Source: Watersipora subatra | Taxonomy: Eukaryota > Bryozoa > Gymnolaemata > Cheilostomatida > Watersiporidae | Length of the DNA stretch: 64,000 bases | Direction: 5' to 3' | Assembly (NCBI RefSeq): GCF_963576615.1 | Contig: NC_088710.1 | Location: 19,209,877-19,273,876 of the forward strand | Shown here: piece by piece, positions 3,510-27,600 of the stretch | How positions within the stretch are numbered: position 1 is the stretch's first letter | Layout of the letters: every line of letters begins with the position of its first letter | Program-made: the position numbers and the translations under genes | The notes under the pieces: generated by a model | What the model saw: the letters and a program-made list of their open reading frames with translations, nothing else | Database searches by the model: none | What the model was told of the DNA's origin: nothing

Positions 3510-5023
3510 CGCCAATGCCTTGCGTTTTGCCACTTCACGTTCCTCTTCAAGGGCTTTGGCCTCATCTCGCCGAACACGAGCAACATTGTCTTTATTTCGA
3601 ACATGCCAGCTACAAGTGGCATAGTAATGGCTTACGAATAATACCTCCGCCAATTTTTCATCATAAATTGGCTGATTCGACAAATGTTCTTTATATATGT
3701 GCTTACTAAGTTATTTGCTTCGATTAGGCTTCGAAAATAATAATGCTAGCAAATCTCGGCTACAAAAGCCAGTAGAGTATGATTGCCAGGCGTGGATTCC
3801 CTAGTTGCAATGTGACATAAATAGGTTGGAAAATATTCAGAACTGAGCTTTGCAGTTTATTCTTAGATTAATCCACCTAGTTAGCTTTACCAAGTTAAAA
3901 GAGTGTACAGATATTCTTTCAATAGAGTAGCAAAGATGAAAGCAACGATTCAAGTTATTTAGTTACCAGACCCAAAGCCAGTGGGGTGATAGTAGCTACA
4001 GAAGTAAATACACCTAAACACCTGATTCATATGAGAAAGCCACAAAATCTGTCTGTGCCTGCAAGTAAAACTAATGCTCTTTCTAACTCATTTTGGCCTT
4101 GCACCACTTGGGAGTGGTGTGACACTCCCTTGTGACGATCCTTCACAAGAGATTGTGTGAAGGAGGATGAAAGGTCAAATGTCGGGGCTACTGTATAAAA
4201 ATTCAGTGGTTACGATAATTCAATTGCAAATGAAATATTACATATTACATATTACGTAAAATCAGAAATATGTATCATGGCAACAAGAAGGCATAGTCGC
4301 ATGGAGTTCTCACGCTACCAATCCCCTACAAACCTCTTAGTACAAAATTGAGATTATAGGCATTAGCTTTGTCGATTACAATGTAATGCGAGATTGTCAT
4401 TAGGCGGTCGTTATTCATGTAAAAAGGAGGCATATTTGACCAACTTGTGTGTATAATCACACAGTCCAATCACTAAACCCAATCTAATACGCTGTTAAAC
4501 AGGTTTTCAAAAAGTTAGTCTAGCGGAAAAAACCTTGTGAAATACGATATTTTAGTGCATGAAACATACTCGGAATAATAAAATGCCCTTGGTCGAACTT
4601 CTTGGTGGTCTTCATCGAAGTAACCATTATGTGAAATAGTCCTGCAAAAACCCAGTGTTCGTTTTGTAAGCGTTGGTTTTTTTATTACACAATAAAAAAA
4701 CCAGATTGTCTAGAGCGAAGTGCTGAATCGATTTTTTCAACTTAGCCACATACCTGCCAACTCTCACGCATTGGGCGTGAGACTCACGCAATCACCCCAA
4801 AGAAAAAATGAAAATGCGTGAGATTTTTGCCAAAATTTCCACAATTTTATTCATACTATCATTGATACATCAATTGCCCCAAAACCAAATCTCACGCATT
4901 GCCCCACTATTGGGTTGGCAGGCCTGCTTAGCGAATAGCTACGTTTCAAGGCTTTCGTGAAGATTAGCAGAGGAAAAAAATCAAAATATCTCGATATTAC
5001 CTTTTCTTCGGCAATATATTCAT
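3510..5023 (-). CDS. LENG1: LENG1-like protein, first two coding exons (partial)
   Basis: Coding exon 1 is only 23 nt (5023 down to 5001): ATG followed by NILPKK plus two bases of a Ser codon, then donor GTAATA. Exon 2 runs 3609 down to 3510, between a TTGTAG acceptor and a GTAGGT donor. It completes the Ser codon and reads [18 protein letters not shown] and then a Glu-rich charged helix. The phases join exactly (2 then 0), giving 41 codons. The N-terminal [19 protein letters not shown] block is the hallmark of LENG1 (CIR N-terminal domain), a nuclear protein linked to spliceosome complexes. Vertebrate LENG1 is about 260 aa, so most of the protein is missing here. The remainder may lie left of the window. 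The 1.4 kb intron contains a MITE. Confidence 0.75.
4753..4922. mobile_element. Short MITE with CCTGCCAAC inverted ends
   Basis: The ends are CCTGCCAACTCTCACGCA and a matching inverted GTTGGCAGG preceded by CTCACGCATTG. CTCACGCA or its complement recurs at least four times inside about 170 bp. It lies in intron 1 of the LENG1-like gene. No target-site duplication was certain. Confidence 0.6.
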
Positions 5024-5160
5024 CCTTTAAACACTTGTCAACCTATAGAAGTGATTGTAGTGTTGTGGAAGTTCTCTCTCCGTACCCAAAACGTGGTGGA
5101 TCATAAAATGGCGTTCGATCGGCAAGACCAGTAGCGACTACGGTCTCGCAAGGGTAACTG

Positions 5161-7435
5161 GACTTTTGGGCGACAAACACTTAGGCGACACTTTCGGTTC
5201 GAAAGGCGACAACTTCAGACGGAAAGACGACACGGCAGACAAACTAGCGACAATTCCAGACTGAAAGGCGACAAGTTGGTTTGCTGTTTGGTTGAAGGCA
5301 AGGTAATGTACATGTACTGACAAACTATGAGATTCTGTTGTCGTGTGCTTAGGTATATTTTTGAAACGTAGCTTTGACAGTGTTATTGTTTTCTTTTTAC
5401 AGACTTTTTATAAATCGAAATGGTAATATGTATTTTCAACGCCATTGGTGGGATTTCTCTGATTATGCTAGCCCAGACATTTAACAAAATATTAAGGCTA
5501 TTTTGATAAAAACGCATTTAGCTTTTTCAATTAAAACACCAAAACTTGTTTGTGTATCAGCATCTTTGTTCAAAACGGTTCCAAAAGTCACGTTCTCGGC
5601 TGAATTGTTGACAATTTTGTCTCCGATTGTTAAAACTTTAGAGTTATCTTACCTCGAGAAGAAATAGTTTTATGGTTTCGATCGTCGAAATTCACAGTAC
5701 ATGTACATCTAGCTGGGAGAAGAATTTGCTCTTTGTGTGAGATGAAAAGACAATTCCCTATTATTGTGATTTCTTATTCACTTGCGGAATGAATGATTTC
5801 CTTATCATTGTTTCCTTACAATTATGATAATAATCCAATGTCATTATAATGCAGACTCAATAGGCTAAATTGCGGTTTACACTGATTTATGTTTGTTGAG
5901 ATTTTATTTGAGTATGAAGAATGAAGGCTTTTTCTGACATAGGTGTTCTAAGATATATCCATATTTTACTAACTTCTGCAGCTTGTCGCAAGAAGACTAA
6001 ACATCATCACAAAAAGCTTATGGAGAAACGATCCATTCCAAAGCATAGAAATCAATCGGTCCTGATGTCATGTCACCCTTAGAGTTACTTGAGATATTTG
6101 ACCGAATCACCCTTGTCACAGATCCCGATGGCACACGCAACTTGTAGTTTGAGACAATGAGGAGTGAGCAACACCTCAAAAACCTTTGTGATATATACTC
6201 AGCTGCAGGTTAATGCTGCCATGTGCCACATCATATACTATATTTTGCATTTTAACACGCACTATGAATCTTTTTATACACAATTATTTTAACAAAGAAC
6301 AGGCTTCAGAAAAAATGGGAAGATATTACATAGACAGCTATCGGCTTGAAATTTAATTACAACTTTATTAAATAGTGGTGTAGGGATTTTCCTGCTATTA
6401 TTTTTGTGTATGATTGGAAGTGCAAGTGCATTTGAGTACCTGCGAGTCACTGTGTATAATTATACTCCTGTAATTCAAATTATATTTTCATGTAAGTTTT
6501 AGTATTATATTTTAGAATTAGTAGAAAGTAATATTCAGTTACTAATTTATAACCGTGAACCTGATCTCGTCATTCTAGACGGGAAAGAGAAGTTCTATCG
6601 CTAGATGGGTTTATCTACATAGTATCAATCAGAATAAAGTTATCGTAAAAAAATTAATGCCGCAAACTATTGATATACGTATTTTTAAAAGTTATATATG
6701 ATAAAAATCAGCTTTACTATTTGTATAAATATACCAAAAAGCAAATTTATTAAAATGTATCAAGCTAAACTCATATGTATTTATTTTCATACTGAAATTA
6801 GAACAAAAATATACATTAGCTAAAGAGCTACTACTGAGGGTTCTAATACGTGAGCCAGAAATAGTATAATGACTCATCAACAGCGATATGCTAGTGACTC
6901 AAATAGTGACTGTCCAAATGCAAATGACTTCTGAGAGTGTGGAGTTGACAAACTCTAGAGTTAAATTTGTGGAAAAGGATGAACAGAGTAATAGTTAAGC
7001 AATTAAAGACAGATTAACCTCAGCAGTTTATTTTTAATAATAACCTTCTCAATTAAATGAACATTTGGTACATTTATTAATTCAAAACGAAATTCTACTG
7101 GGTGTAAAATAATAATGTAATCAGATTAATGAGGATATAACAGGTAATAGATGCCAAGGAAATAAGGTGGAGCAATGAGTGAAAAATATACTAATGCAAG
7201 ATTTCCAATCTGGGCATCAATAAATTTATTGTCTTGTTAGTGTTCACTACTAATTCACAACAACATAACAGGATTTAATATTTTGAATTAATCCTGCCCT
7301 CAGAATTGTCGCCTCGATGTCCAGAATTGTCGCCTGCTTGTCCGCTCTATCGCCTTCCCGTCTGAAGTTGTCGCCTTTTGAACTGAAAGTGTCGCCTAAG
7401 TGTCTGTCGCCCTATTGATTGTGGCCTAACTGTCC
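5161..7435. mobile_element. Inverted-repeat element with GGCGACA arrays at both ends
   Basis: The left end has GGCGACA-type heptamers starting at 5169, 5184, 5204, 5226, 5246 and 5267. The right end has the complement at 7307, 7328, 7348, 7369, 7390 and 7405. The spacings (15, then about 20-22 bp) are mirror images, so the arrays form true inverted termini of a 2.3 kb unit. The interior (5300-7300) is AT-rich and shows no convincing coding sequence, so this looks non-autonomous. Exact outer boundaries and target duplication are uncertain. Confidence 0.65.
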
Positions 7436-8375: not shown

Positions 8376-9230
8376 ATCTTAGGACTCGCTATCAAGCGCC
8401 GCGTAGCGTGATTTAGCATATCCACAACCAGACATTAGAATAAACCAGTAAGTTAGAATAATCAGCTTTATTCTTTATACTTTGTACAGCTTTATACTTG
8501 TATTGCTTCTCGGTAGTTCTGTGGAAAGTTGTACTTTTGAGGTTTAAGTGTCAAAATATTGCGACTTTTCTATAAAGCAATATTTTTTTAACACTATTGG
8601 GCAGAAACTTTGTCTGTTCAACGATTTGATTTAAATGATAGGTCATTTAGTACTTTAGTCTTATAGTGTTACATTTTACTAGCAAATGGTCCTTCTTTTG
8701 TAGGGATCGGTGTCGTAGGATTCTTTTCAGACATATTCCTGTTGTTTGTGCTCTGCTAATATTTCTTATAAGATAGGGTTTTCCCACTTGTTTTCTTCAG
8801 GTTTTCCGCATATTTTATTTTGAAAAAGCGTGAAAACATAATTCCATCTTCTATTTTTTATTTATTGTGTGGTTTTCTGTTTTTATACTTATCTAAAGTA
8901 GCATTGTTGTGTTAAGGTAAACACTTTTTACATCGGTTGTAGCAAAAAAAGGGCCTTCTCTTATCTTGCACTCGCCTCAATACTAACTCCCCACTAAGTC
9001 ATTTCTGCGTCACCGGTTTTTCCGTAGCTCATGAAAACCTGTGCAGTTAAATTAGCGTAACAGGTGACTCTTTGGCTTGCGATGAATATTCAGCTCCCAC
9101 ATTAAATAAAGTCATCTTCAGTTTTTGTAATTGTCAATTCACATATTTTAGATATTCACTACATACGAGCATTAAGGTCGGTGATGCCCCTGATTTTTTT
9201 CATTTTAAATCAGATTGCGCGAAGGTAGGT
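8376..9230. other. Gene-free AT-rich stretch
   Basis: No exon, RNA gene or clear repeat was recognised on either strand. Confidence 0.5.
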
Positions 9231-9370
9231 GTTTAAGAAACTGGTTCCCGGGAACCAGACAGGCTCGTGAAATCAAATATTTTTAGCAACCTTGCAGAAA
9301 GCATGGAGCATATTTGCGAAGTTTGGATGAAATCAGCCCAAAAAATGTGGAAACAGTGTTTACGCAAATT
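9231..9370. repeat. Dispersed repeat X, copy 1
   Basis: Contains AACTGGTTCCCGGGAACCAG, then ACCTTGCAGAAAGC and CCCAAAAAATGTGGAAAC. A diverged copy with the same block order lies at 53905-54030. The class is unknown. Confidence 0.5.
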
Positions 9371-9544
9371 AACAGACACGCACAATGGCGCAGTTAGATT
9401 TAGTAAGGTAGACTTGTGTTTGTAGCCGACTTAAAATTGGTTTCAATCAAGAATATATAATATTAATTACTTTTCTTAGGTTGGCCTATTGCTCAGCTGT
9501 TTTTGGTTTAAAAGTTTCTTTTTATAACCATATTTGGTTATTAA

Positions 9545-9678
9545 ATGGTGACTTTTAACAAAATTGACATTACAGTATAATTCACATTACATTTGATATC
9601 AAAAAATTCACCACAATCAATCTTTTAGAAAAGTATCAGGTTTTGCCTATAGACAGTCACTAATAGTGGTACAAGTAC
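9545..9678. repeat. Outer partial copy of the TTAA-element terminus
   Basis: Starts after TTAA (9541-9544) with ATGGTGACTTTTAACAAAA and contains ACATTACAG and TGATATCAAAA, a diverged relative of the adjacent terminus at 9683. It mirrors a similar outer copy at 17733-17930, also bordered by TTAA. Confidence 0.6.
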
Positions 9679-11018
9679 TTAAAGGTTGACTTGCAACAAA
9701 ATTCACATTACAGTTATTTGGTATCAAAAGATTCACCATGTCTTACTCTGCTGTCTTGTAGATGCAAACTATGTGGAAATGTGATTAAAAGCTCTTAAAA
9801 GCTCAAAAACGAACAGAAAATCGCAGCGACACAAGACCGTCCTAGTTTGGATTCGTTTTCCAAAACGGCTAAAATGTGACATATGGTGTGGGAGATGATT
9901 TATGTTTACACTTTCATGCATCTTTATTCGTCGAACTATTTTCACAAATATACTTCACGCTTGCGATAAAAACCATGTCTATTGTTCTTACGCGTCTGTT
10001 TCATCGGCATCGTAATGCTGCAACTTTGAGCACTGTTATCTCAAAACATAACATAAAAATATGTTTAATTTTTTAAACTTAGCTTGAACGATTGCATATC
10101 ATCCTATGATAAAAATGATGAGCCTATTGGTCCGCTATGATGGTCGAAAAATGCTGTAGAAGTTGTTCGCGTCATATGGGGGGAAGTGTAAGTCACATGA
10201 TCAGATAATGTTAGTTTCAGTTCAAGTTTGATCTATCGCAAATAACAGATACGCTTTCTCGTATTAAACTTGCTAATTTCAATTCGTCATAATCTCTAAC
10301 GCGCCACATCGTGTTTGTGCAGCTGGCAAGCTGAGAAGCACCTTGTTTCTTAGCCAAGAGCAGAGAAAAGACCAGATCTTCACCGGGCGTGGAGCAACTG
10401 GGTGAAGCTGGATGTGACAAACTTTATTTATTCGCCTGCTTACTCTTACCTTTGTTTTCGCCATTTCAAAGACGACGTGTTTTCTAACCTGTTTGCATAC
10501 TCCACATGCCACCAAAGCACGTGAGTAATTTATTTTATGAACCACTTGTATTAGTAATAGTAACTCGGGTTATTTTCTAGTATTCTCCTAATACTACCGT
10601 ATTAATCTATATTTAATATTACAATATTAATGTCATTTAATTGTAATATGATATTGTTAGTATTTTATCTTTTTAATTACGTGTATTATTCTTATTATAA
10701 TAACAAAACTAATTCATACTGCATATCTATCTGTAAAACGTAATATATTAATCTATAATTGATAAAATAATGTTATAAGTTTCACGATTAATTTCGCCAA
10801 ATTTCTTAACCCCACTCACTTATAGATATGTTATATAAAATAGTTATTGTCATTTTCTGGTATCATCGTTAATAGCATATTAACATTATTAGATGATTAT
10901 TATTAATATTAGATGATGAAGAGTTTGTGCCAATCACTGAAGACTGGGAAAAGTTTGAGCGCTATGTTGGCCAGCGTCAAACACTCTCCAATTACATGTA
11001 AGATAGAGCTGAGCTTAA

Positions 11019-11648
11019 CCTAGCCTGTCTTGACAAGCTGTTGTTTTTTAGTAGTTGTCCGCCCGTCGAGCGGCGAGCAACAACAGCTTGTCACAAGACG
11101 TACTGCACCTGATGCATCAGCTGCACTTATAGGGAGTTGTTCTCTTCCGTCTACGCGGCTTGGCCGCGATGTTATGTCGGTCGCTCCATTGGTAATCATA
11201 ACGGATTTCACGCAAAAATTTATGTAGAAAAAAAACCAAGATTACAACGTTTAACCAAAGACCAGTTTCTGTGATAAACTTTAGTAGAACTTAAGAATAA
11301 AAAAACTCAAAATAAAATCCATAAGAACAAATTAAACTGACTGATACAAAATAGAAATAAAACTGACAGAGCGCACAAATAATCACATGTTTAGTCGCTG
11401 TTGTTGCCTAAGTTCTCAAATTCTAATAAAGTTTACTGCAGAGAGGGGTCGCCAGTTAAACATTCTTATCTTAATTTTTCTACATAAATTTTTGCGTGAA
11501 GTCCGTTATGATTACCAATGGAGCGACCGGAATAACATCGTAGACGGAAGAGAACAACTCCTTATAAGTGCAGCTGATGCATCAGGTGCAGTGGGGACCA
11601 CGGGGGGACAACTACGCAAAAACAACAGCTTGTCAAGACAGGCTAAGG
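11019..11648. mobile_element. TTAA-flanked MITE with ~200 bp inverted arms
   Basis: Left arm about 11019-11230 and right arm about 11480-11648 are inverted copies, starting CCTAGCCTGTCTTGACAAGC on the left and ending with the complement on the right. TTAA lies immediately outside both ends (11015-11018; 11649-11652), as in piggyBac- or Kolobok-type insertions. The short spacer carries no gene. It lies in an intron of the broken transposase-like gene. Confidence 0.8.
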
Positions 11649-12972
11649 TTAACCAAACTTGACAAAATATAAAGAATATCCATAGAGTTATTACTCACAT
11701 TTTTATGTTTACAATATCATGGATTCTGATAAGGTTTTGTAAAATCTGTGTCATGATTGCATGGCTATATATTTATTCTTTTTCTGATCAAGCAAATATG
11801 ATATAATAACAGGAAATTATGTTGTACAAATCTCATTGCAAGTCAACTATTGTGTTGTGATGTCAGACCCGAATCCTCCTTCAAAGAGGAGAAATTAATA
11901 ATAAGTGTGACAGCACTCCAGCGACTATTTCAGTCACGCCTGCGCCCTTCTCTGCTCATTCACGATGGTGCGAGAAGGCGGATGGGTAGAGTTCAAGGTT
12001 ACATGTGCCTCCTGTCACCAATCGTACATTTGGGAAACAACTGCCAGGGTGAACAGAGCTCACGTCATCAACCCCCTGTTGGCAGCTGCATCACTCTTTT
12101 CTGGCGGATGCCTTACGCAGAACCTCCGTTTTCTGTTGCTCTTGAACACCGCGATACCAAGCCACAGCGTTTGCCTCTACCAACAAAGAGAATACTTACA
12201 TGGTGTGAGTGTTAATATTTACCCATAAACTTAGAAAATGTGAGTAAAAGCTAGGCACACTAATTGAATAACGACATTTAAAAACAATTTTTTTCTTGAA
12301 ATGAAAATATGTCATCCTTCAAGCAAAATATATTATAATTTGAAATTCTGATTCTTCATCATAATATAACACAAAAAGGGGGAAGAGGATTCTACATTCT
12401 TAGACTAATGATTATGATACAAATTAATCTTGTATAATGAAGTTTTACAATATTTTACAATGTATTGCTGAGCAGTACACCCTGCATAACGAGGGACTGA
12501 TGGCAGCAATCGATTGGGAGCTTGATTTGGCAGATGACAGTAGATGTGATAGTCCGGGGCATTGCGCACTATACGGGGCCTACACTATGACGGATCAGAG
12601 CTGCGGTTTAATAGTCAGCAGCCATCTTGTCAAGGTAAAACTTTGTCAGTTTCTACTTCACAGCCTGACAAAAACTGAAATTTTTTAGTAGTTATTAACC
12701 CTATGCGTACCAAGACCGACATTTGTCGGTTTACGAGCAATGTCTCAGCGTACCAAAACCGACAAACCCGACATTTTTGCCGTTTTCGATAGACCTTTTT
12801 TAAAACGTTTTATTTATTTTAAAATTAACGTTAAAAATTAAAATTAAAAATTTGAGCAGTTTCAGTAAATTTTTTACTACTGTTCTGACGCTATAAATAA
12901 TAAATTTTATGCGCATGTGCAAAAAGAACACGTTGTAAAGATTAGATCTTTCTTTATGGAAAACTGATCAAC

Positions 12973-14637
12973 ATGGACGGACGCGATAATTTGAGCTCGG
13001 CTAAAAAAATTTGTTTAGAGGATGATATCGACTGGTTCGAAAGTGAGGAAGAGGATTTCAGGTCAGAAGAATGTGGGGAAGATGATGAGAGTGAAAAAGA
13101 AGATCGACAGAGTGAATCTGATGACGAAAGTGAGAGTGAAACGACCGACGTTGAACCAGGGAGTAATTTCGGATTTCAAAGAGGAGCTGATCTAAAACCG
13201 AAAGAACTGCATTTTGATGAGAGCTTGGCAGGTGTACAAAGTCGAATTACTGGACAGATAAGTATTTTCAATTATTTACAGCTTTTTATTACATCGGCCA
13301 TCATGAATGTTATAGTTAACGAGACAAATAGGTATGGCCTTCAAAAACATGGCGATGCATGGGAGTCTGTCGATGGCAAAGATATTTGGCGAGTTTTTGG
13401 TTTAGTTTTGCTCATGGGTATTGTCAAGAAGCCTACTTTGTTGTCGTATTGGTCTACCAATCCGTTATTATCAACGCCAATGTTTAGTAAAATGATTTCG
13501 AGGAATAAGTTTTTAATGGTTTTGAACAGTTTGCATTTCACTGACAATTCGGAAAACCCTGATGGCAATAAGTTATTCAAGCTAGGAAATGTTTTTACCA
13601 TGATATCTGACCGGTTATCTTCTGTTTTGCTGCCTGGTAAATTTATATCTATAGATGAAAGCTTGCTGGCTTGGAAAGGACGGCTCAGCTTCAGGCAGTA
13701 TATTCCATCTAAAAGATCTAGATTTGGAATAAAGCTATTTGCTCTCTGCGATGCTGTCTCTGGCTATGTGCACAAGCTGTCTGTGTACATTGGTGATGAG
13801 CGAGAACAAGCCGAAGGAACTGGTAGAGGAATCACTCACAACATAGTGATGAAATTAATGAATGGTTTGCTTAATTCGGGTCGTTGTTTATATATGGATA
13901 ATTATTATAATTCGCCAGAGTTAGCAGCTGAACTTATTAAAAATAACACTCATGTTTGCGGAACTCTGCGTGCAAACAGAAAAGGTGTTCCTAAAGATTT
14001 GAAAGTTTGCAATGGAAAAGCTATTAAAAAAGGTGAAACAACAAGCTTTTCTAATGGAGAAAGTATGATTGGCTGTTGGAGAGATAAGAAATATATTTCT
14101 GTAATTTCAACTATGCATAAAAACTTGGATGTCGTAGATACAGGCAAAGTAAACTATAAAGGGGATAAAGTTTGCAAACCAGCTGCTATTTTGGATTACA
14201 ACCGATACATGGGAGGAGTTGACAAATCTGATCAAAATTTGCATTATTATAATGCTGCGCGTAAAACCATGAAATGGTACAAAAAACTATTTTTCCATTT
14301 ATTAGATATTTGTGTGTACAATGCAGCCATTGTTTATAGAATCCGTAGCGGTTGTAAAATAACTGACTTAGAGTTTCGACAGAAATTAATTGAACAAATA
14401 TTTGAATACACTGGATCTTGCCGCAAAAACACTGTTCCCCGCGCTTTAACTTCTTCCGCTCATCGATTAGTGCTAAATAGTCCAGGAAAAGGTAAACGAG
14501 CTAAATATAGAATTTGTAGGCGCTGCCCAAAGCGAGCTAATGACAACACCCGTAAGCGAGACGAAACTAGATTTAAATGCCAAGCATGTGGAGTACCTTT
14601 GTGCGAACCCTGTTTTGAGCCTTACCATGCTAAATAA
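12973..14637 (+). CDS. piggyBac transposase (DDE_Tnp_1_7 family), intact
   Basis: 554 codons in one exon. The N-terminus is strongly acidic (Glu/Asp/Ser-rich to about residue 65). The catalytic domain spans roughly 75-460. The expected aspartates are visible at D228 (SIDESLLAWKGR), D309 (YMDNYYNS) and D417 (YMGGVDKSDQ). The C-terminus (about 500-550) is a Cys-rich finger with CRRCPKR, CQAC and CEPCF, as in PGBD-type proteins. It would cut and paste the surrounding element at TTAA sites in the nucleus. The length is normal for the family and there are no stops or shifts. AATAAA overlaps the stop codon, a possible early poly(A) signal. The start was chosen as the first ATG before the acidic region. 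Confidence 0.95.
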   Translation: MDGRDNLSSAKKICLEDDIDWFESEEEDFRSEECGEDDESEKEDRQSESDDESESETTDVEPGSNFGFQRGADLKPKELHFDESLAGVQSRITGQISIFNYLQLFITSAIMNVIVNETNRYGLQKHGDAWESVDGKDIWRVFGLVLLMGIVKKPTLLSYWSTNPLLSTPMFSKMISRNKFLMVLNSLHFTDNSENPDGNKLFKLGNVFTMISDRLSSVLLPGKFISIDESLLAWKGRLSFRQYIPSKRSRFGIKLFALCDAVSGYVHKLSVYIGDEREQAEGTGRGITHNIVMKLMNGLLNSGRCLYMDNYYNSPELAAELIKNNTHVCGTLRANRKGVPKDLKVCNGKAIKKGETTSFSNGESMIGCWRDKKYISVISTMHKNLDVVDTGKVNYKGDKVCKPAAILDYNRYMGGVDKSDQNLHYYNAARKTMKWYKKLFFHLLDICVYNAAIVYRIRSGCKITDLEFRQKLIEQIFEYTGSCRKNTVPRALTSSAHRLVLNSPGKGKRAKYRICRRCPKRANDNTRKRDETRFKCQACGVPLCEPCFEPYHAK

Positions 14638-14639
14638 AT

Positions 14640-16058
14640 TTCCAAATTGTATTTAAAATAATTTAGTTTATGCAAATGCTTTGTTGTGTTGTTAGCTATT
14701 GTACATACACTTGTTGAAATGTCATGATATATTGTAGTTGTTGTGCATTGCTATGTTGTATTTGTTGCCCACGGCCCTCTTCAGGGCCACATATAATCAA
14801 AGAGTTCAGTTCTCATATTGTTCTGCCATCTGGCAGGATTTCTCCATCATTTGCCGTTTCTGTTCATAATAAATGTTGCTTCCTGTCTTTTGCTGCTTCA
14901 CCAACTGTGTGAATACAGGCTCACCACTCAATTCTTCTTGTGCACAACCAGTTAACCTTTGCTGCAGCACACATGCATCCATGCGATCAGTTTGCAAAAT
15001 TGTTACATGAATCTATAGTTTCAAGAAATGCATATCAATCTGACAGAAAAAAATAATAACTGAATATATAGATTTGAAGTTGCAGTGTTTGCAAGCTGCC
15101 CGGAGGAAAAAATCTCAGTCTGTAGGAAAATATTTCAGCTTTTAGATGCATATTCATTTGCAGTTTTATATAAATTTGCACCAGAGTTTGAGGGGCCATG
15201 TCCGGTAACTGCAGCACTGCTCGTCGCCATGGCGTCAGGAGCATTTCGTAGGTCTGCACCCGCGATGCACAGGGGCACCTAACTACACTTTTGATGTGCT
15301 TGGACAACCCATTTTTTTTGCAAACTCTTGTATAAATATGACACCATGCAGATGCTTATCATGAACCGTTTTTAGCAGAGATAATGCTTCTAAAAGTGTA
15401 TTTGTTATCGAAATTTCATGGTAGAGGGGTGACAACTTCGTCGAATCTGGCTTGTGACTAAAGTGTTCCCAGTCGATGTACAGGGAATCTATGGCTGTTT
15501 GTTGAAAAATTTCTAAGCTTTCAAATGCATATTCATTTACAGCTCCATGCGAATTTGCATGCGAGTTATAGCCAAGTTTAGACGACCATGTCGCGCCTCC
15601 ATTATTCGCAGGTTGTTAGAGTCTTGCGCCGAAAATTTCGAGAGGCGTTCCTGCATTGCAACGGAGCTTGTAACTCCGCGTTCAATGCTCTTCGACGATC
15701 AGTTTTTTTTGCAAAACATTGTGAACATATGACTCTATGCAAGTGTCTTTAGTACAACATGGTCAATTACTTATATCAATTAGAAAAATACAATTGAAAA
15801 TGGCATACAAAAATAAAAATTTCATCGCTTCAGCAAATCGACATTTTTGTTGGCAAATATTTGTGAGTTATCTACACAGAAGAAGCATCAGCTTGTAGAG
15901 AAATTTCTCAGCTTTCTTATGCATACTAATTTATGCAACTGCCACAATTTTGTTGTAAGTTACTGCAGTTTCTATGCGTTCATGTCGGCAGCTCAAATCG
16001 CGCAAGTTATTGCACGGTACTCTAGTGGTTTTTCCATCGTAACCGCGCGGTCGCTAAA
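14640..16058. repeat. Subterminal degenerate repeats in the piggyBac
   Basis: A block with TTTCAGCTTTTAGATGCATA and CATTTGCAG (near 15130-15165) recurs near 15510-15545 and 15903-15930. A second block, TTTTTTTTGCAAA with TATGAC and ATGCA, recurs near 15313 and 15703. The period is about 380-395 bp. No coding sequence was seen. It may hold transposase binding sites (inference). Confidence 0.55.
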
Positions 16059-16267
16059 GGGTTAATACATTAACATGAAGTTGCTGATCTAGCTAAATAA
16101 TTCATTCAAATAATGTGAAAGTGATTGTTGGTCGTAACTTTTTTACTTTGCAGTCAACAGAGACCACCAGCTCTAACGCCATGGAGCTGGAAGGCTTCAA
16201 GCAATGCCAGTCCGATCTAATTTCCCATGGCCTGAGAGTGAGGTCCATTACAACGGATGTTGTTACA

Positions 16268-16443
16268 AAGGTTGTGTGCATACCACAAGCTTGTGTTTTG
16301 GCTTATGCCGCAAATTCGTCGCGGTGAGCGACGGCCTCTATCTGCCACCTCTCACCAACAGATGATGAAGAAGAGTTTGCAGACTTGCAAACAAGATTTG
16401 CGGCATAAACCAAAACACAAGATTGCGGTATGCACACAACCTT
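16268..16443. repeat. Inverted repeat with 46-bp arms
   Basis: AGGTTGTGTGCATACC followed by ACAAGC and TGTTTTGGCTTATGCCGCAA is repeated in inverted form at 16398-16443 around an ~80 bp spacer. It lies exactly where the transposase-like gene loses similarity (after TTD), so its insertion or an associated deletion probably removed the 3' half of that gene. Confidence 0.65.
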
Positions 16444-16746
16444 TTCCGAGCATTTGGCGATGGCTCTTCAAATTGGAATAGATTATCTATCAAAACAATT
16501 ATTGAAAAACAATAATTGCCGATCATCAAAATAATCTCGATCTTTATATAATACAGTCATAAAACTAATACACTCTCTACTGTAGTAAGTGTACAAGCCA
16601 AATATAACAATTTTCCTTGTGTTCCACGAGTTCAGAATATGTGTGTTCAACCGATGCATTAAATGTGTAACACAAGAATTGTAGATAATGCATGACACAT
16701 TAGCATAGCTTTGGTGTTATTGACATTAAATGAAAATCCAACTCAC

Positions 16747-17330
16747 TATGATATCGCAGATAATTATTCCACCCCAGCTCAAGGGGTGCAGGCGCCATAA
16801 GTTCGTCCACACCAGGATGCATACACAGGCATTCATGCTCCCAGCGGTCATGGAGATGATGCGCAAACTCAGCATCATGGCAGCGCAAACATTCAGGAAG
16901 AGATGGCATGTCTTGACAGCGCTTGCAGACACACCACTCTGGAGCCGGTGGTATTAGCTCCTAAAGAAATGAACAGATATGTCTGTGCAACCATAGCTAA
17001 TACATCAGGTCGATTTTATCCAACAGTATATCAGTGCAGCACTAGATTTAAATATTAAAATTGTTAATGTTGTCATTCGAGAAAAATCTGTAATTATTTT
17101 TTCGCAATATGAAGCGATAATTATCATCATTAAAATCATATACATGTATATAATAATAATATTCGTTCTATCACTCTCAAGCTAAAACTATTACTACTAG
17201 CTACCTTGGCACATAAGAGCTGGCTAGTGGCGGTGCTTACTTGCTGGGAGGTTTGATTCTGTTGAGGATCTTCTTCAGATAGAGCGTCAGGCTCGAAACG
17301 CCAGGGTCTTAACCCTTCAGAATTTGACAT
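16747..17330 (-). CDS. P2X7-intracellular-domain-like gene, two exons (3' end missing)
   Basis: Exon 1 (17330 down to 17241, donor GTAAGC) encodes MSNSEGLRPWRFEPDALSEE and a Gln-rich tail. Exon 2 (16960 down to 16747, acceptor TTCTTTAG, donor GTGAGT) joins in phase 0 and gives PPAPEWCVCKRCQDMPSLPE, then CLRCHDAEF, HECLCMHPGVDEL and a Trp/Tyr-containing helix. A short PxxFEP start and a WCxCxxC...MPxxxEC..C cluster are, from memory, typical of stand-alone invertebrate homologues of the P2X7 C-terminal cysteine-rich domain (P2RX7_C). No ion-channel segment is present. The expected C-terminal exon was not found: the downstream region is the 46-bp-arm inverted repeat and transposase remnant. It lies inside the TTAA-bounded element, opposite the transposase. 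Function unknown. Confidence 0.55.
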
Positions 17331-17732
17331 TTTTTATGATCGCAACTCGGACATGTACACGTATGTTGAATATTCGGACGAAATGGCCAAGCTGAAACTG
17401 TAAAGTAGCGAGCATCTATATTTGATACGGGGTTTTAGGTAAAACCCGAAGTGTTTGTCATAAACTATTGCTACGATAAGTTTGATATTGCGCTTTGTAT
17501 TGGCCTTTCAATTCACGCGAGAACATCACGTGACAAGACAATACCAAAATCCGCGGATACGTCATCGAAATCAAGAGATTCCAATTTACGGCGTCTTTCT
17601 GTTTTTGAGTTTTTAAGAGCTTTTAATCACATTTCCACATATTTGGCACCTACCACGCAACAGAGTAAGACATGGCGAATCTTTTGATACCAAATAACTG
17701 TATTGTGAATTTTGTTGCAAGTCAACCTTTAA

Positions 17733-17930
17733 ACTATGTCCCATTTGAGTCGTTTTGGAAAAGGATTCCAATGTACGGCATTTCCGTGATGGCTGCAATT
17801 GTTCGTTTGTGAGCTTTCAGAAATTGTAATCACATTTCCACATATTTTGCACCTACAACACAGCAGAGTAAGACATTGTGTTTCTATTGATACCAAATAA
17901 CTGTAATGTGAATTTTTTAAAAGTCACCCT
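17733..17930. repeat. Outer copy of the TTAA-element terminus, right side
   Basis: Repeats the sequence of 17589-17728 (TTTCCACATATTTTGCACCT, GAGTAAGACAT, GATACCAAATAACTGTAATG) and ends GTCACCC followed by TTAA at 17931-17934. Together with 9545-9678 it gives each flank of the large element a tandem pair of termini. Confidence 0.6.
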
Positions 17931-17934
17931 TTAA

Positions 17935-18686
17935 CTTTTGTTATTGATAAAATTAGATAAAGGTTCAACAGGGCCTAACTGTTTTTGTAAATTAAGCTAG
18001 AGGATACTGCTCATTATTGGAACATGTGCAGTAAGTGTATGAAATAACTCTTTGTTGGAAAACTAAAGTTTCTCATTTACAGTATTGTTACTCATTGTGA
18101 TTTTTGTCAATAGTCATAAATTAGATATTAAATTGACCTTCATTTCAAATCTGTAAACCAAGCAGCTGTAAAATTGTGTTTTTGAATGATTATGTAGGTT
18201 GAATTCGGAATATTTAATTTTTAATGGTTGAAATTATCAATCTTTACAAATATTATCACACCACATATATTTTTATTTGCTTATTTCAGGTCCTACACAG
18301 CGATTAAACTAATTATTTTATGACAATGTTCTTGACATCCATCTGTGTTTCAATCATTTTAGTTTTTTAGCTATTTTAACAGTCTCATAAAAGTAGATGC
18401 AAATATTTTACGTCTTCAAAAAATCATGTCTCACCAAAAACTGCTGTGTATAGTTTATTAACTTGGTAAAATGAGAATTTTGCTAGTGTTCACTGTATTT
18501 TGTGAAATTTTGGTTATGTAGCATTTAATCAATTCGGTAATTGGCCTACATTCTTTCTCTGTAGTTTTTCTCCAATTATTTTCAAACAAAATGTACATCT
18601 TATTCTGAAAGTTAGTTTTTTTATTCAGAACTTCAATTGGTTGTATTGTAGGAAGTATTTTATTACGTATCGTATCTGTAGAGGAA
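17935..18686. other. Intergenic region upstream of TYW4
   Basis: AT-rich. No TATA element or other promoter motif can be assigned with confidence, and I recognise no repeat. It presumably holds the TYW4 promoter and 5' UTR. Confidence 0.4.
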
Positions 18687-21600
18687 ATGAACAATAAAGG
18701 TAATACAGCCACTGTACAGGGAACAAATGACAGCAGTATACTTAGTAAACATGCTATGGTGGAGGCTGGCTACTCATCTGATCCCTTCCTACAAGTATTT
18801 ACAAAAAAGAAAGCACCAAGAAGAGCTCCTCTCATAAACCGGGGCTACTATATTAGAACTAAGGCAATCGAGAGTATTATTCGAGACTTCCTGTTAATTC
18901 ATGGGCAAAAACAAATTATCTCTCTTGGGGCAGGATTTGACACAACAGCTTTTCGTCTATCTGCGGCATTGGATATCCGTTTGGCTATGGACGATGTTTA
19001 TTACGTAGAAGTAGACTTTCCAGAAGTGGCCCAGCGAAAAAAAGATTTAATGGCTGATGGTGACCTGGAAAAATATGTCAATGGTAGCTCTAAAGCAACA
19101 AGTGATGCCATAAAAATTTCAACAACAAATTATTGCCTGATTGGAGCAGATATCGGTGAAATTGGTTGTCTAGAAAATGTCTGGACAAATCATACAGAAC
19201 TTAAGAGGGATCTACCAACTCTGTTACTTTCCGAATGTGTCATGACCTACATGGAGCATGCGCTTTCCACCGGCCTTATTAAATTCTGCAATTCTTTCTT
19301 CACTAACTCATTGTTTGTCACGTATGAACAAGTTGAACCCCAGGATGCATTTGGTCAATTCATGAGAAAGCATTTTGACAAGCTTAACTCATCCCTGAAA
19401 GGAATTGGCATTTATGATAACAAGGAAAGGCAGGTTGCTCGCTACTTGGCATGTGGCTATCAAACAGTGAGTAGATAAGACTGCTTTTATTTTAATTGTA
19501 TAAGACATTTGTATTTACATTTGTGCTTTTAGTTATCTTTCGTTTGTCCAATTGTATTATTATTGGTTTTGGATTGAAGCTCATAACTTTCTCATTAACC
19601 GGCTGTCTGCCCACAGTTAATAAACTCGGTTGATCACATCATGTTACACCTTTATGTGTTACTTTGACTAAATACATGTAGCTGCGCAGGTGGATGCATT
19701 TAGTATGAAGGAGTTCTATGATTCCTTGCCTCGGACTGAGAAAGATCGGGTGAACCAACTAGAATATTTTGATGAGTATGAAGAATGGAATCTGAAATGC
19801 TTTCACTACGTCTTGATCCTTGCCAGATCTAACTCAAGTCTCTTTCCTCAAATTGAAAGGAGAGTCAACTCTGTTGAACAACACATTCATGGTACGCGCT
19901 GCCAGTGCTTTGATTGTGATCATACGGGGACCATTAACTATTTTGGATAAATGGAGCTATTTGATGCAGAATTATTTTCCGGTTATAATGATATGTTCGC
20001 TTGTTTAGTAGCTGAAAATTTGTCATTGTTACAACAACAAAAATCATCATATCCCTTAAACAGTTTCAAACATCGTTTAAACAGCTTGCATGAGATAGTA
20101 GTACTGTTTGTTATGTATTTTGGTTGTTTTTGTTTCTTGGTAAGCATCTTAGCAACATCTATCATCTATTACTTCCAATAGCCAAAAATGGACTTGTTGA
20201 CTAATTAAACCATTACGATTCGTTCAATTTAAATGATCACCCATTGTAGAAGGGACAATTGATTAGAAGGCTTGCGAGTAGAGATTTTTCATGAAATTAT
20301 TCTATACTAAATTTTAAAAGTAAAGATCAAACTTATTGATCTGAGTGAACTTCTAAAGCAGTAATTTTGGCACATGGTGTTACAGATGTTTTCGTAAATT
20401 TGAACAAGCATTGAATAATTGTGCCAGATTATCAGCTTTTAGATTTATCAACTTCTACCCATAGAGTTATCTCCCCTCCCCTAGAGTGATAACTGTGCCT
20501 TCAACAACACGAGCATTTCTGGTGCCAACAAGGTGCTTTTAGGCCACGCCCCTTTTTTGTGCTAGTCAATCGTAGTGATTGACAGAACAATAACATCAGC
20601 CATGAGAATAATCATGAATTTCCAGTTAAGATAGTAATTATTGCTCATATTAAAGAAATGATGATTATAGTTTATTACTCTAATTTATGCTTATTATTTA
20701 AAGCAATTCAATACCTACATGCCTTGCAAAGCCACTGAATAGATAGTATTAAGTAAGTGAGTTAATGCAATCAGTTGCTCCAATGATATACAGCCCCCAT
20801 GCATGGGGGGCTGTATATCATTGGTTACTCATAGATAAGCTAGATAGTCATACTGGGGTTGTATTACATTGGTGTGATGGGAGGCTAATCGACTGCCATC
20901 AACTGAAAGTATTGACATTGTATGGTGATAGAGTGATTCATTGACACCACAGTTCACAAACAGCCCTTGCTTGTAATATTAGATTTCAATACATGTCAAT
21001 CAAATACGTAGAGTAGCTTGAAGCAAAGATGTCCACTAGTTAGTGGACATCTTTGCTTGATGCAAGCAAAAAGTTTGAAAGTTAGTGTGACAAATGTTGT
21101 TATACTCTGGGACACTTATATTTCGCTAGTATTTAGTTTCGTGAGTAGCATACAGAGTAAAATTTCGCTGCAACTTAATTTCGCGGATCTGATGAGTGTG
21201 AAAATATAGTGATGTGAAAATAAATGCAGTAGAACAAACATAATTAGATTCATCAGGTCCAGTTCACTAGTAAAGAAATTTTCAATTTGGCACTGGTTTG
21301 TATTTGTGAACCGCGGGTAGAAATGTGTGGGCAAGATCGACAATGTAACTTGATCGTTTGTTGCTATTTGTTTCTTGGACTATCAATGACATCTAGGTCC
21401 TTGCCGCCGTGACTGATGTGGCGCCAATATTAGATCTCAAGTATTTATAGCACGTGGTGGCCATGGCTCAAGGTTGTTATTGTTTTTGGTTGGTAATAAA
21501 ATTCATCCCTACAATAATTATTATTCAATTTTATGACTTTCCCTACCAGACTTTCATCCTCATCAGTTACAAATTCAGTGACTAAACTAATATCATCATC

Positions 21601-24600
21601 TTCCTCATTTGTCTTGGCTTTTCAAGTTTTCCAAAAGAACTTGTTATCTCAATTTGCTTTGCCACGCTGCTCAGTCGGCGTATTAGCTATAATGAGTTAA
21701 GCAGAAATTGCCCAATAAGCTCAACCACACACAAAGGTTACCTGCATTTTTGATATGACAATTTTATTGTGGATATCAGTGAACAAAGCTATTTAATTTC
21801 GCGTTTTTGCTCGTTCGTTATGATAGTTTAGTTTCGCTCGTGAAATTTTCGCCAGAGGATGACGCCGTCAAAATGCGAAAATTAGATGACGCGAATACAT
21901 AAGTGACCGAGGGTATGTTAAATAAAAATAAATTATACTTAATTATACTAAATTATAATTATTTAAAAATAAAATAGACTTTTTTATTACTTTATTTATT
22001 AAATAATTTTTTATTGTAATCATAGCTAAACAGATTATAATTAGCCATTACTTGCTAATTATTTCACATTTACATTTAAACACATTTGCAGTTTCATTTT
22101 TCTTCCTAATTTATTTTAACAAAAAACTTCTTTCATGATATGAAATTTAAAAGTTGTAGTTGTTTGAAAAAGCTTGAAAACATTTACAGTTGTTTTTATT
22201 TTCTCTCTTCTCTTTATTTATTTCAATTACACAAAATACTTCTCATAATATTTAGTTTGAAAGTTAAAGTGGCAAATGTTCTTATATGTTAAATAAAAAT
22301 AAATTATACCTAAATATACTAAATTATAATTATATAAAAATAAAATAGACTCTTTTATTACCTTATTTATTAAATAATTTTTCATCGTAATCATAGCTAA
22401 ACAGATTATATTTAGCCATTACGTGCTAATTATTTTACATTTAAACACATTTACAGTTTTATTTTTCTTCCTAATTTATTTCAACAAAACACTTCTTTCA
22501 TGATATGAAATTTAAAAGTTGTAGTTGTTTGAAAAAGCTTGAAAACCTTAACAGTTGTTTTCTTTTTCCTCTTAATTCATTTGAACTGTTTAAAAATATT
22601 TTCTCATGATATGAAGTTTAAAAGTTAGAATGGTAAATGTTATATAAAAATAAATTTTCTTTCCAAATACTTTTTTATTACTCAGGCAACTCGGGTAGTA
22701 CAGCTCATAGTTGATGGCAGTCGATTAGCTTCCCATCACACTAATGTAATACAACTCCAGTATGACTATCTATCTTATCTATGAGTAACTGATTGCATTA
22801 ACTCACTTACTTAACACTATCTATTCAGTGCCTTTGCAAGTCATGTAGGTATCAGGGATTACGTGTATGTCACAATTTCCATAATTCATTTCCATATTAT
22901 TTCCATTTCCATAGCATTTCCCTACTTCATTTCCTTATTATTTCTATAACATTTCCATAATTCATTTCCATATTGTTTCCATAACATTTTCGTACTTCAT
23001 TTCCATATTATTTCCGTAATTCATTTCCATACCATTTCCATATTTCTAAAATAAACTTTCCATATACATTTCTCTAAAATTATGGAAATATGTTTATGGA
23101 AATGGATATGGAAAAGTAAACATTTCCTTAATATGTTTAGCGATCCTGGTAGGTATTGAATTGCTTTAAATAATAAGCATATATTAGAGTAATAAACTAT
23201 AATCATCATTTCTTTAATATGAGCAATAATTACTATCTTAACTGAAAACTCATGATCCTTGTTTAACCATTCTCATGGCTGATGTTATTGATCGTCAATC
23301 ACTACGACTGACTAGCACAAAAAAGGGGCATGGCCTAAACGCTCCTTGTCGGCACCGGAGACGCTCGTGTAGTTATCACTCTAGGGGGAGATAACTCTAT
23401 GCTTCTACCACATGATGTGACACACTTATGTCCTTAAAATACCTAACGGTAGATGATTTCAAATTATCAACCTACAGTTGATGATTTTCCAAACATCACA
23501 TGCTCCTAGATAATAGAACCATTCTGTACCCTTGATAAACTTTCAAGTGTTCTGTGTCGTATGCCACAAACTATGACCATCGATAAATTACAGATCATAA
23601 AACAATGTATCAACAGCTATTTGGTGAGACAACTTCTGATTCACTCTGTTGTGATTCTTATTTTAAGTATTATAGCATATATGCAAACTAATGTTATATA
23701 TTATTTTACGTATTTATTAGCTGTTTTTGCGGTTTTCCAGAAAACCAATATTTTCAAGATGACAATCTTTGCAGTTGCAACTCCTGAGAAACCCCTTACT
23801 GTTTATCAGCAGACAAAAGGTTCACAGCAGTTCAGTCATGCTTCATGTCTAGTCAGTCTGACTGATAGGAGGGTCTTGCTCACCCATGGAGGCTTTGGCT
23901 TGGAGAAAAGTCGGCACTGTCGCCAGACAGTGACTCGCTATTTCTTGCTAGATGATAATGGTTGGTACTCATCAAGAATTCACTGCGTTTCCAACGAGTT
24001 TGGAGTTTCCCACTGCTGATAAATTCGTACCCTACCATTTCAAGAGTAATTGATCAATTCGGAGTTGCGCTATATAGATCATTTCAAGATTCGTGTCGCT
24101 CAAAACCAAACTTATTAAAGTTGACTCGCTTTTGGGTTGCATTCACTTTTCAGTGCATGTGTCGCCAATACTAGTTGTGGTACTAGCTAGGCCAGGAGGC
24201 CTGATCGCAATGGTAAAATTTTCGTACTTCCACTAGGGAAAGCTTAGCCAGGTTTTATCGATTCAGATCCATCAGCAGTGGGCGTTTTTATGATGTCGAA
24301 TAGTGCACTCACAGTGAATGCTTTCTCACAAATTTTACCGAAGCGAATCGGCATTGAATGCATGCGAATTTTGCGGTTTTTTTTGTGATTCTATGTTTGA
24401 AGTGGAAGCAACTTCGAACTCATTCGAAGCATGGAAATACAGTGATTGTGTGCTTGCCTACACTTTGGTCATAAAACAATTGGGTGAAGTTAGCTATTAA
24501 GTTATCATAGTTATCAATGAAGTTATCAACTGATGTTATCATAGTTATAATCCATTATCACTTTGGTCGTGGGCTGTATGACAGGGAAATTTCTAGTGAG

Positions 24601-27600
24601 AACTATGATAACTTCATCAATAATTGATGAAGTTATCATAGTTCTCACTAGAAATTCCCCTGTCATACAGCCCACGACCAAAGTGATAATGGAAAAAGAA
24701 AGAGTACTGCTGGTTGAGAAATGCAATATTAGCAGTCAAATGGCACTGCAGTGACATAGAACTGCAATGGTAGCTGTAATGTACTGGGTGTTGTTATGTA
24801 CAACAAACAACATTAATGAAAGGAAAATATTACATGTTTATATCTCTTCCCTGCAATAGGAGAAACGCAATATTAGAAGTAAAATGGCAAACTGCTGTGT
24901 AATGTACACAGGCTGGGGGGCTGTATATCATTGGTCATAGCAACCAATATCAAGAATTTGTGATATTTATCTAGATTTCTGTATTTATATCTAAAAGATT
25001 ATGATGAATTTAAAAATCTAAACAGATTTTAGCCGGTTGTCATAGAAATAAATGTATATCTATAAGAAAATGTAGGCCTATTACTTAATTTTTTAGATAT
25101 TAAAGATGGCTTGGCAGTACCGCGATATTGGGCACAGCCGCAGTATCATCAAAAAAATCTTTAGAAAAATAATAACAGTAACATATTGCACACCATCGGT
25201 CACTATATACTTCGATTTTGTAAATTCGAATGAATATTCTTATAACTAAATCTCATAATAATTTTATAAAATCGAATAATTATTCTTACAATTAAATATT
25301 GTAATCGCATAAGAATCATTAGAAAAATATCGTCATTTCCTTCACTTTCACTGTTTTGGACATCAGTTGGAATACCAAAGTATTAATTATAAGTGTTCAA
25401 AATGTCAGAGTCTGGTAAAATCGGCAAAAAAGAAACGATTACTTTTCAGTACTTCTATGTTAATTACAGAAACCTTCGGCAATTGGACAATGCCATAGAC
25501 TGGTTAAATGTGCACGTTTTTCTCGTGAAATGCCCACGACTTAATGGTTCAACTCTTTGTCGCTCAGCCTTATCGGCGTTTTGTTGGCCGGTCTTAATTT
25601 TTATTAAAAAAGGCTTGTCAAGTTTTTATTGGCGATTTTAGGCCAAATTAATCTGTTTATTTATGTGTAATCTGATCAGATGGGTTAGTTTCGGGATATT
25701 GCGTCAACTTTTCAAAGACTTGGTAACATATTTAAATATGTTGATATGTGTTTTGTATCATTATTATACTTGAACGACTCTACACAAAAACGGTTAAATT
25801 CTTTGATGGAATTTCGGTACAAGGGTTTGGTAACGGACATTGACGAATAATTTTTCGGGAGTTGTGTGCGCATATGCATTTATCATAAAGCTCCCAAACG
25901 ATCGCTTCGCTCGTGTTTGGTCGTGGGAACAGAAGTTATCCTAGTTATCAACTGAATGGTAACATCGTCTATTAGTCTTCACCTGTGCTTCCAGAGTGGT
26001 TCTCATCACACTCTTTACTGGCTCTTACTTCTCTTACGTTATGTTATCATCTTATTAGTGTCAACTTCTCCACCTTGATTACATCTTTGCAGTTTCCTTT
26101 TGACCTACACCCGCAGTGCGATATAGACGTGCTATCAGTAGTTATAATGTCGGCTTTGATATTATTGAGGTTGTGGCAAGACATTGACAAACTGGAAGCT
26201 CTTTGCTTTATTTTAACCACAATCTCGGTTGGGCGTGAAAGAGCAGATTGTCCCTTGTTGCAATGTACATACTGTAGAGGTGTTGTGACATAAACAATGT
26301 TTTCCTTGGACCTTATAAAGAAATTAAAAATAGTGTCGATTTCTAGCATTTCTTTGCAAGATTATCTTCGTGTCACCTGTCTCCGTATGATAAATGTTAA
26401 TGACTGACCATTGACTCCTGTTAAATGTCAATCTCGTTTGTGACTAGGCCTACCATGTTTTTCAGGAGTGGCTTTGTCCAATTTTATTTTGTACTGTAAA
26501 TGTTTAAAACTAACTTTTAACACTTTGTAATTGCATCTATAATAGTTCTGCTGGAGTAATATTTGATTCTTTTCCTAGTGTGTCAGAACCGCTACTTATG
26601 AACGAATATCAGTACTCTCCAGCTATATATATATAATAGAATATAGTGAGATATACAGTCAAACATGGATAACTCGCCCACGGATAGCTCGAACACATGG
26701 TTAACTCGAACGGTTTCTTGGTCCGTTCCCACGTAATGATAAATTGCTATAGATAACTCAAATTCAACACTGTTAACTCGAACTGTTTTTTGCCCAACCA
26801 CTACCGAAACGGTTGTTATCGCTTTAGAAAATCACTTTATTCCAAGCCATAGAGGTAAACCTCAACTTTTCGTAATTCATAAGCGTCGTTATTCCCACCA
26901 TCGGCAAAATATTTTTGTCAACGACTTTTCTAAAGGTTTGGTGAAATTTGATTTATACCAAACATCCGCTTAGAGATCGCCCTTCGGAAGCGAGGTAAAG
27001 TGAGGTAATCTTTGCATAAACTTCAAGAAAAATCGGGAAAGTTGATCGTGGGTAAAACGCTCAAAAGAAAAAGATGTCTTTTCTTTTGAGCATTTCAACA
27101 ACGATCAAGTTTTGCCAATGTCAATCTAAAACCTCCTGGCAATAACATCACCTTAAACAACAAACCAATCTCAAGTGATAGAAAAATCTCTATACTTTTT
27201 GATAAAAACGTTTTAAACTTTACATTAGAGGCATTTAATTTGAAACAAGCCATTTGTGCTTTTGATTTATATTATAGTTTGTATATGTACATGTATCTAC
27301 TAATAAATAAGTAAATACATGGACTTGTGACAATCCTCTGATAACTTGAACGCTCTGATAATTCGAACACTTTCGCTCGGTCCCGTGACGTTCGAGTTAT
27401 CCATGTTTCGCTGTATATGGTAGAATATAGCAAGATATCTATGATATAATATAGCAAGATAAATATGATATAACATTGCAAGGTGTAAATGATATAATTA
27501 GCGTAATGTCCGGCGTTGCCCTGGTATTAAAAATCAGCTTACAGACAGTGACAAGTAATGTAGTTGCCTGCCATTAGCCTGGCACATTGCCAGTGGCTAA

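Follow-up and report, generated by a model that had tools for sequence, protein, structure and literature searches.

Kolobok DNA transposons have ends that follow a 5'-RR/YY-3' rule, and in their Kol0 lineage a second protein, KolX, is reported to have the fold of the P2X7 ballast and to have given rise to the P2X7 and Nanor domains (Kojima and Bao 2022, PMC9587614). Here, we describe an element of this kind in the window, a stretch of 64,000 nucleotides from the bryozoan Watersipora subatra. We consider it very probable that the window holds an inactive, internally rearranged deletion derivative of a Kolobok DNA transposon that bears KolX. The element resembles Kol0 (Kolobok-1_XT type, PMC9587614) in its TTAA target, RR/YY ends, probable DDD/E-type transposase, and a KolX with similarity to the P2X7 ballast. 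What sets the window copy apart is its state as a deletion derivative, its inverted KolX exon 3, and the two inserts nested in it; the likeness is one of features.

Several other described systems bear on this locus. KolX shares with the ballast (ZCD), or P2X7 C-terminal, domain its zinc-binding cysteine pattern, but ballast genes are reported as few per species and in old synteny (Rump et al. 2020, PMC7016195), whereas KolX is repeat-borne here, with at least 150 copies. Xenopus Kolobok transposases (PMC6004289) have the same plan of a THAP and a DDE domain; the terms KolX, accessory, ORF2, and second ORF (open reading frame) are all absent from the main text of that article. piggyBac elements also target TTAA, and one of the nested inserts is a piggyBac, although it is independent of the outer unit. 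KolobokP is marked by long terminal direct repeats and a His-Me nuclease; the longer copies found here end in inverted repeats.

The pairing of KolX with a Kolobok transposase is real but was published in 2022 (PMC9587614). Because Kojima and Bao already describe KolX, the pairing found here is not new. Beyond their article, no paper linking Kolobok and the P2X7 ballast was seen in the titles or opening abstract lines of the papers listed, and Rump et al. 2020 (PMC7016195) use no words beginning with transpos-, Kolobok, or mobile in their main text.

KolX and the transposase form a repeated convergent unit

We refer to the Kolobok family of the window copy as family A, to a second family with a single-exon KolX as family B, and to the family represented by locus L079 as family C. 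KolX exon 2 of family A was found in at least 150 genome places at 85–100% (150 of 671 candidates scored), and the transposase exon with the RCDSPGH motif in at least 150 places at 91–100% identity (150 of 567 candidates scored). Among the scored matches, at least 48 of the 150 KolX exon 2 places had a transposase exon within 10 kb, compared with 0.57 pairs expected by chance, and the two were convergent in all 48. The spacing was 0.89–1.04 kb in 35 of these pairs. In the window, KolX likewise lies convergent to the transposase and inside the element's ends. The fixed layout (48/48) supports, within this genome, the idea of an earlier note on this DNA that a P2X7-like domain has been spread by a Kolobok-like element.

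Six longer copies fetched via the transposase exon were all bounded by TTAA followed by AGGTTGACTTGCAA on the left and by TTGCAAGTCAACCT followed by TTAA on the right, measured 4,027–4,166 bp, and contained both genes; their ends are inverted repeats. Eight loci were cut out via the left terminus, the eighth being the window itself. The other seven (L002–L008) had no match to either gene region, and a second inverted terminus lay ~0.9 kb away in five of them; these are thus short gene-less forms. The expectation that full copies carry both genes between inverted ends was thus borne out by the exon-picked copies (6/6), although not by the terminus-picked ones (0/7), and the termini do flank both genes elsewhere in the genome. 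Because terminus-picked copies are gene-less and exon-picked copies hold both genes, the termini appear to be more mobile than the genes.

Fuller copies, among them those at C7:12.060 Mb, C4:43.754 Mb, and C8:7.896 Mb, were located with the transposase of L079, which matched 33 stretches with a 77-aa frame, 40–46% identical, that represent a core exon absent from the short copies. KolX exon 3 lay on the opposite strand, 1.54–1.69 kb off, in at least 24 of the 33 (66 of the 150 exon 3 places were listed), and these 24 were all free of stops in the matched part, in a score-ranked list that is biased toward intact frames. Six KolX exon 2–transposase pairs spaced 2.48–2.54 kb apart all showed the order transposase exon, core exon, KolX exon 3, KolX exon 2, with both KolX exons opposite to the transposase strand (6/6). 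Judged by coordinates only, these longer copies would therefore keep both of the lost parts, the core exon and KolX exon 3, in their proper places. Separately, 20 of the 33 core exons fell within a 7.3-Mb interval (C2:46.37–53.70 Mb), which may be rich in repeats or duplicated and thereby harbor fuller copies, and more lay on the small contigs C38, C69, and C135.

Termini and boundaries of the window copy

The ~140-bp inverted termini bordered by TTAA that the earlier note had described were confirmed as arms at 9679–9817 and 17594–17732, 139 nt long and 91% complementary (126 of 139 bases matching), the TTAA at both outer ends included. TTAA was present at both ends, and the ends read AG...CT, in accordance with the RR...YY rule, in 7/7 compared copies (window counted). 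Searching the 783.7-Mb genome with the left terminus gave 496 first-look candidates; scores were obtained for 40, a set that includes the window's own terminus, and each of these matched at 94–100%. As read by eye, the Kolobok copy appears to have inserted into a second, related TTAA-bounded short element, whose ends lie at 9541 and 17934. The features of the locus are listed in Table 1.

Table 1. Annotated features of the Kolobok locus (positions in the window; exon borders of the window copy were read by eye)
Feature	Position	Strand	Evidence
Left part of outer, related TTAA-bounded short element, apparent host of Kolobok	9541..9678	.	Read by eye
TTAA, left end (target site)	9679..9682	.	TTAA followed by AGGTTGACTTGCAA in 7/7 compared copies, window counted
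Left terminal inverted repeat of Kolobok	9683..9817	+	Arm comparison, terminus search, alignment of longer copies
THAP-like exon region, keeps PRAEKRPDL...CFRHFKDD, stop just before	10275..10511	+	Colinearity with copies, L039 exon profile score, window frames
Palindromic insertion, ~0.6 kb	about 11021..11645	.	Site empty in 26/29 other copies, 3 could not be judged
Transposase exon upstream of first catalytic Asp, approximate ends	11911..12205	+	Colinear in other copies
Transposase exon with RCDSPGH	about 12470..12631	+	91–100% identity among scored matches; homologous to L079 transposase
TTAA target duplication of piggyBac, left	12695..12698	.	Empty-site comparison
Nested piggyBac element, CCCTATGCG...CGCTAAAGGG, 3,363 bp	12699..16061	+	Empty site in 29/29 other copies
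piggyBac transposase open reading frame from first ATG	12973..14637	+	PF13843 305.1 bits, zf-Tnp_2 32.7 bits
TTAA target duplication of piggyBac, right	16062..16065	.	Empty-site comparison
Transposase exon TETTSSNAMELEG, frame ends soon after second catalytic Asp (SITTD)	about 16154..16267	+	Frame reading, L079 match
KolX exon 3 copy, wrong strand, frame-breaking deletion	16267..16395	+	Empty-site and copy comparison
KolX exon 3 cut short after ~16 codons, inverted-repeat partner of 16267–16315	16396..16444	-	Arm comparison, copy comparison
KolX exon 2, WCVCKRC..., zinc-binding half of ballast domain	16745..16960	-	Genome matches 85–100%; P2RX7_C profile
KolX exon 1, MSNSEGLRPWRFEP...	17241..17330	-	Copy comparison; splice donor by eye
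Right terminal inverted repeat of Kolobok	17594..17728	-	Arm comparison, alignment of longer copies
TTAA, right end	17729..17732	.	Alignment of longer copies
Right part of outer related short element	17733..17934	.	Repeat comparison

The Kolobok transposase gene

The transposase of the window copy is best read from its sequence as the split exons of a DDE-type Kolobok transposase gene. The exon pair with RCDSPGH and SITTD matched the transposase frame of L079 (E 3e-14; 48% identity over 58 residues). Beyond the second Asp (SITTD), the frame soon stops or changes in the window copy and in all six longer copies, so the DxxH motif and the last acidic residue are lost from them. The DDD/E signature that characterizes Kolobok, with C/DxxH between its second D and E, is thus partly lost in these seven copies and was seen in the homologous L079, where TTDRH...FDSWH...ELE stands in one frame. 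Kolobok transposases generally, though not always, have a THAP domain, and a THAP-like stretch lies upstream of the window exons. L079 (C9:1282600–1286800) has a 331-codon transposase frame and 20 copies at ≥96%.

KolX, the P2X7-ballast-type gene

The earlier note had recognized a transposase gene on the plus strand and, opposed to it, a two-exon P2X7-type gene. Both are present and opposed, but KolX has three exons. The third (RLCAYRNLVFWLMPQIRRGERRPLPACLVSKIRALFPP...) was recognized from a hairpin at 16267–16444, and the window keeps only rearranged pieces of it. We joined window exons 1–2 to exon 3 as read in L041 and compared the result with the P2RX7_C profile (cut-off 23.5 bits). Exons 1–2 covered profile positions 65–101 and scored 16.5 bits, exon 3 covered positions 143–186 and scored 22.4 bits, and the joined exons reached 28.7 bits. 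The ballast similarity expected of a Kol0-type KolX was therefore seen with the joined exons, whereas the window's own exons 1–2 alone fall under the cut-off. No channel domain was seen in the KolX frames, and when viral contigs were searched once with family B KolX, the six pattern matches included no relative.

All 30 distinct short copies (window counted) hold exon 3, whole or partial, on the transposase strand. Exon 3 on the KolX strand is at least partial in 28 of the 30 and reaches at least 47 codons in four (L013, L024, L032, and L038). These arrangements suggest an origin of the short form in which KolX exon 3 was duplicated, in inverted orientation, into the transposase gene and the 3' part of the latter was lost. 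We had considered a small mobile element at 16267–16444 and rejected it because the segment consists of inverted copies of KolX exon 3.

Nested insertions account for the length of the window copy

Comparing the window copy with 29 other copies, each a 3.2-kb stretch centered on a transposase exon, revealed that its 8-kb length is due to two later insertions, a piggyBac element and a palindrome. The underlying Kolobok unit is ~4.06 kb. The 8-kb element proposed in the earlier note therefore does have TTAA-bounded ends, but it includes the two inserts, and the boundaries assigned to it, 9541 and 17934, belong to the outer element.

The nested piggyBac has features of its superfamily, namely CCC...GGG ends, a TTAA duplication, and a DDE_Tnp_1_7 domain; its empty site reads GTTATTAATACAT in L042–L044. 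By our reading of the splice sites by eye, it sits inside an intron of the Kolobok transposase gene. The longest open reading frame of the element (12946–14634, 563 codons open) is the transposase of this piggyBac (PF13843, 305 bits) and not that of Kolobok. A KolX-like protein is reported from a few piggyBac families (PMC9587614); none was found among the three non-transposase open reading frames scanned in the nested element. Pieces of the window palindrome were seen in one of the gene-less forms, L002.

A second Kolobok family carries KolX

The P2RX7_C profile gave 70 matches in this genome (150 of 536 candidates scored) and none in 14 control genomes. All 30 loci fetched, the other 40 matches lying outside this set, belong to one repeat family, family B, with a single-exon KolX of ~244 codons. 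A conserved syntenic locus lacking termini, which would speak for a host gene, was thus not encountered among them. All four longer stretches of family B are TTAA-bounded, with ends near AGGGAAAGTAA on the left and TTTCACT on the right; at the left end, L077 differs and L078 has one extra A. The family B THAP exon (L075) scored 35.4 bits, above the Pfam cut-off of 23.9. A transposase C-terminal exon is present in 28 of the 30 loci and is weakly similar to L079 (E 3e-5), and no catalytic core was seen by eye in the one element (L078) translated in six frames.

Family B KolX scored 58.9 bits against P2RX7_C and matched residues 474–595 of rat P2X7 (E 2.4e-5) with all seven cysteines aligned. KolX of family A and of family B are homologous (E 8e-14). 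In L075, two inverted family B KolX stretches (4295–5624 and 8671–10000), ~3 kb apart, are 99.9% identical over 1,330 bp, which points to an inverted duplication of very recent date.

Selection on KolX

We compared the ratio of amino-acid-changing to silent variants among shared and private changes, using 24 of 30 loci for family B KolX (4 near-duplicates and 2 under 80% coverage excluded), 19 for the transposase-exon control, and 28 of 30 for family A KolX exon 2. For family B KolX, the shared/private ratios were 0.69/0.80; the transposase exon of this family gave 0.42/1.05, and exon 2 of family A KolX gave 0.70/0.79. Private changes in KolX are somewhat fewer than in the control, as would be expected from the selection of family B loci by KolX score, which is biased toward intact KolX; shared changes are not fewer. 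A stop was found in 12 of the 24 family B KolX copies, and an insertion or deletion relative to L075 in 23. These mixed ratios lend no support to the proposal that selection maintains KolX in the deletion derivatives.

Alternative explanations and proposed mechanism

A host stand-alone ballast gene, captured by a transposon copy or lying inside one by chance, would fit the few such genes per species and the old invertebrate synteny that Rump et al. 2020 report (PMC7016195); any account based on transposons alone would also have to explain these two findings. We regard this origin as very improbable here: KolX exon 2 recurs in its many places with a fixed convergent layout wherever the transposase partner is also listed, all six longer copies hold KolX between the same ends, and the repeated unit refutes a host gene for the window locus. 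The P2RX7_C loci that were fetched form one repeat family, although a single-copy host gene may exist among the other 40. Mobilization of the whole 8-kb unit by the internal piggyBac transposase, whose frame is open over its 563 codons and whose TTAA target is common to both elements (PMC9587614), has next to no probability in our view, as the piggyBac has its own ends and target duplication, its site is empty in every other copy compared, and the outer AG...CT ends are not piggyBac-like.

A weightier alternative, which we nevertheless judge unlikely, is that KolX is a passenger with no function in transposition, kept since some derivatives happen to include it. The mixed substitution ratios reveal no clear constraint on KolX, and terminus-picked short forms have spread without it. 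Conversely, two Kolobok families with different ends and exon structures both keep KolX, exon 3 accompanies most of the long forms with no stop in its matched part (subject to the score bias noted above), and KolX is reported for the Kol0 lineage (PMC9587614).

Some observations weigh against a KolX-bearing Kolobok as the source of the window copy. The substitution ratios do not clearly show any special retention of KolX by the deletion derivatives; the THAP-like exon of family A (L039) scores 19.1 bits, under the Pfam cut-off; no KolX was recognized, by blastn and reading of open reading frames, within ~3 kb downstream of the L079 transposase of family C, which also favors a passenger; and a stop lies inside the matched stretch in 4 of the 33 long-form core exons. 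As the terminus-picked loci other than the window copy lack both genes, the majority of mobile copies with these ends may contain neither. Finally, the long forms are known by coordinates only, so that an intact autonomous copy is putative.

If the window copy does derive from a KolX-bearing Kolobok transposon, the transposase of long copies would bind the ends, probably via its THAP domain, excise the element, and insert it into TTAA by a cut-and-paste reaction. Short and gene-less forms could then be moved in trans by this enzyme, with KolX traveling as an accessory protein of the transposase. P2X7-like domains in this genome would come from transposition, as KolX is carried along with the element.

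Acting in trans, KolX might further serve the THAP/DDE transposase as a partner that binds guanine nucleotides, much as the built-in GTP-binding domain does in the P element transposase; we hold this conjecture by analogy to be improbable. It stems from the partial retention of the GDP contacts of P2X7 and the GTP requirement of the P element transposase. The P2X7 ballast binds GDP through contacts of which five are listed for rat (PMC7016195); R546, H547, and R578 are retained in family B KolX, and R546 and R578 in family A. The P element transposase combines THAP and DDE domains and needs GTP, a requirement described as unique to it (PMC7776569). Were the conjecture true, the P2X7 tail would be a reused transposition cofactor sensor.

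From the raw sequence of one genome, copy counts and fixed gene order confirm that ballast genes of the P2X7-like type can belong to transposons. Therefore, P2X7-rich invertebrate gene sets need to be checked for Kolobok ends before family expansion is claimed. The long forms, in which KolX exons 2 and 3 both stand in position, offer a concrete system for testing the role of KolX.

Other features of the window

About 0.7 kb from the outer element begins a region (18609–32071) that looks like a single LCMT2/TYW4-type gene: a leucine carboxyl methyltransferase exon (PF04072) is followed downstream, on the same strand, by kelch repeats. Within it, a 33-bp tandem repeat of 45.5 copies (28033–29534) is open as a 514-aa minus-strand frame and is probably a satellite, not a gene. 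Farther on, at 32620–33939 on the minus strand, lies a hAT transposase fragment comprising the C-terminal dimerization region (33.5 bits).

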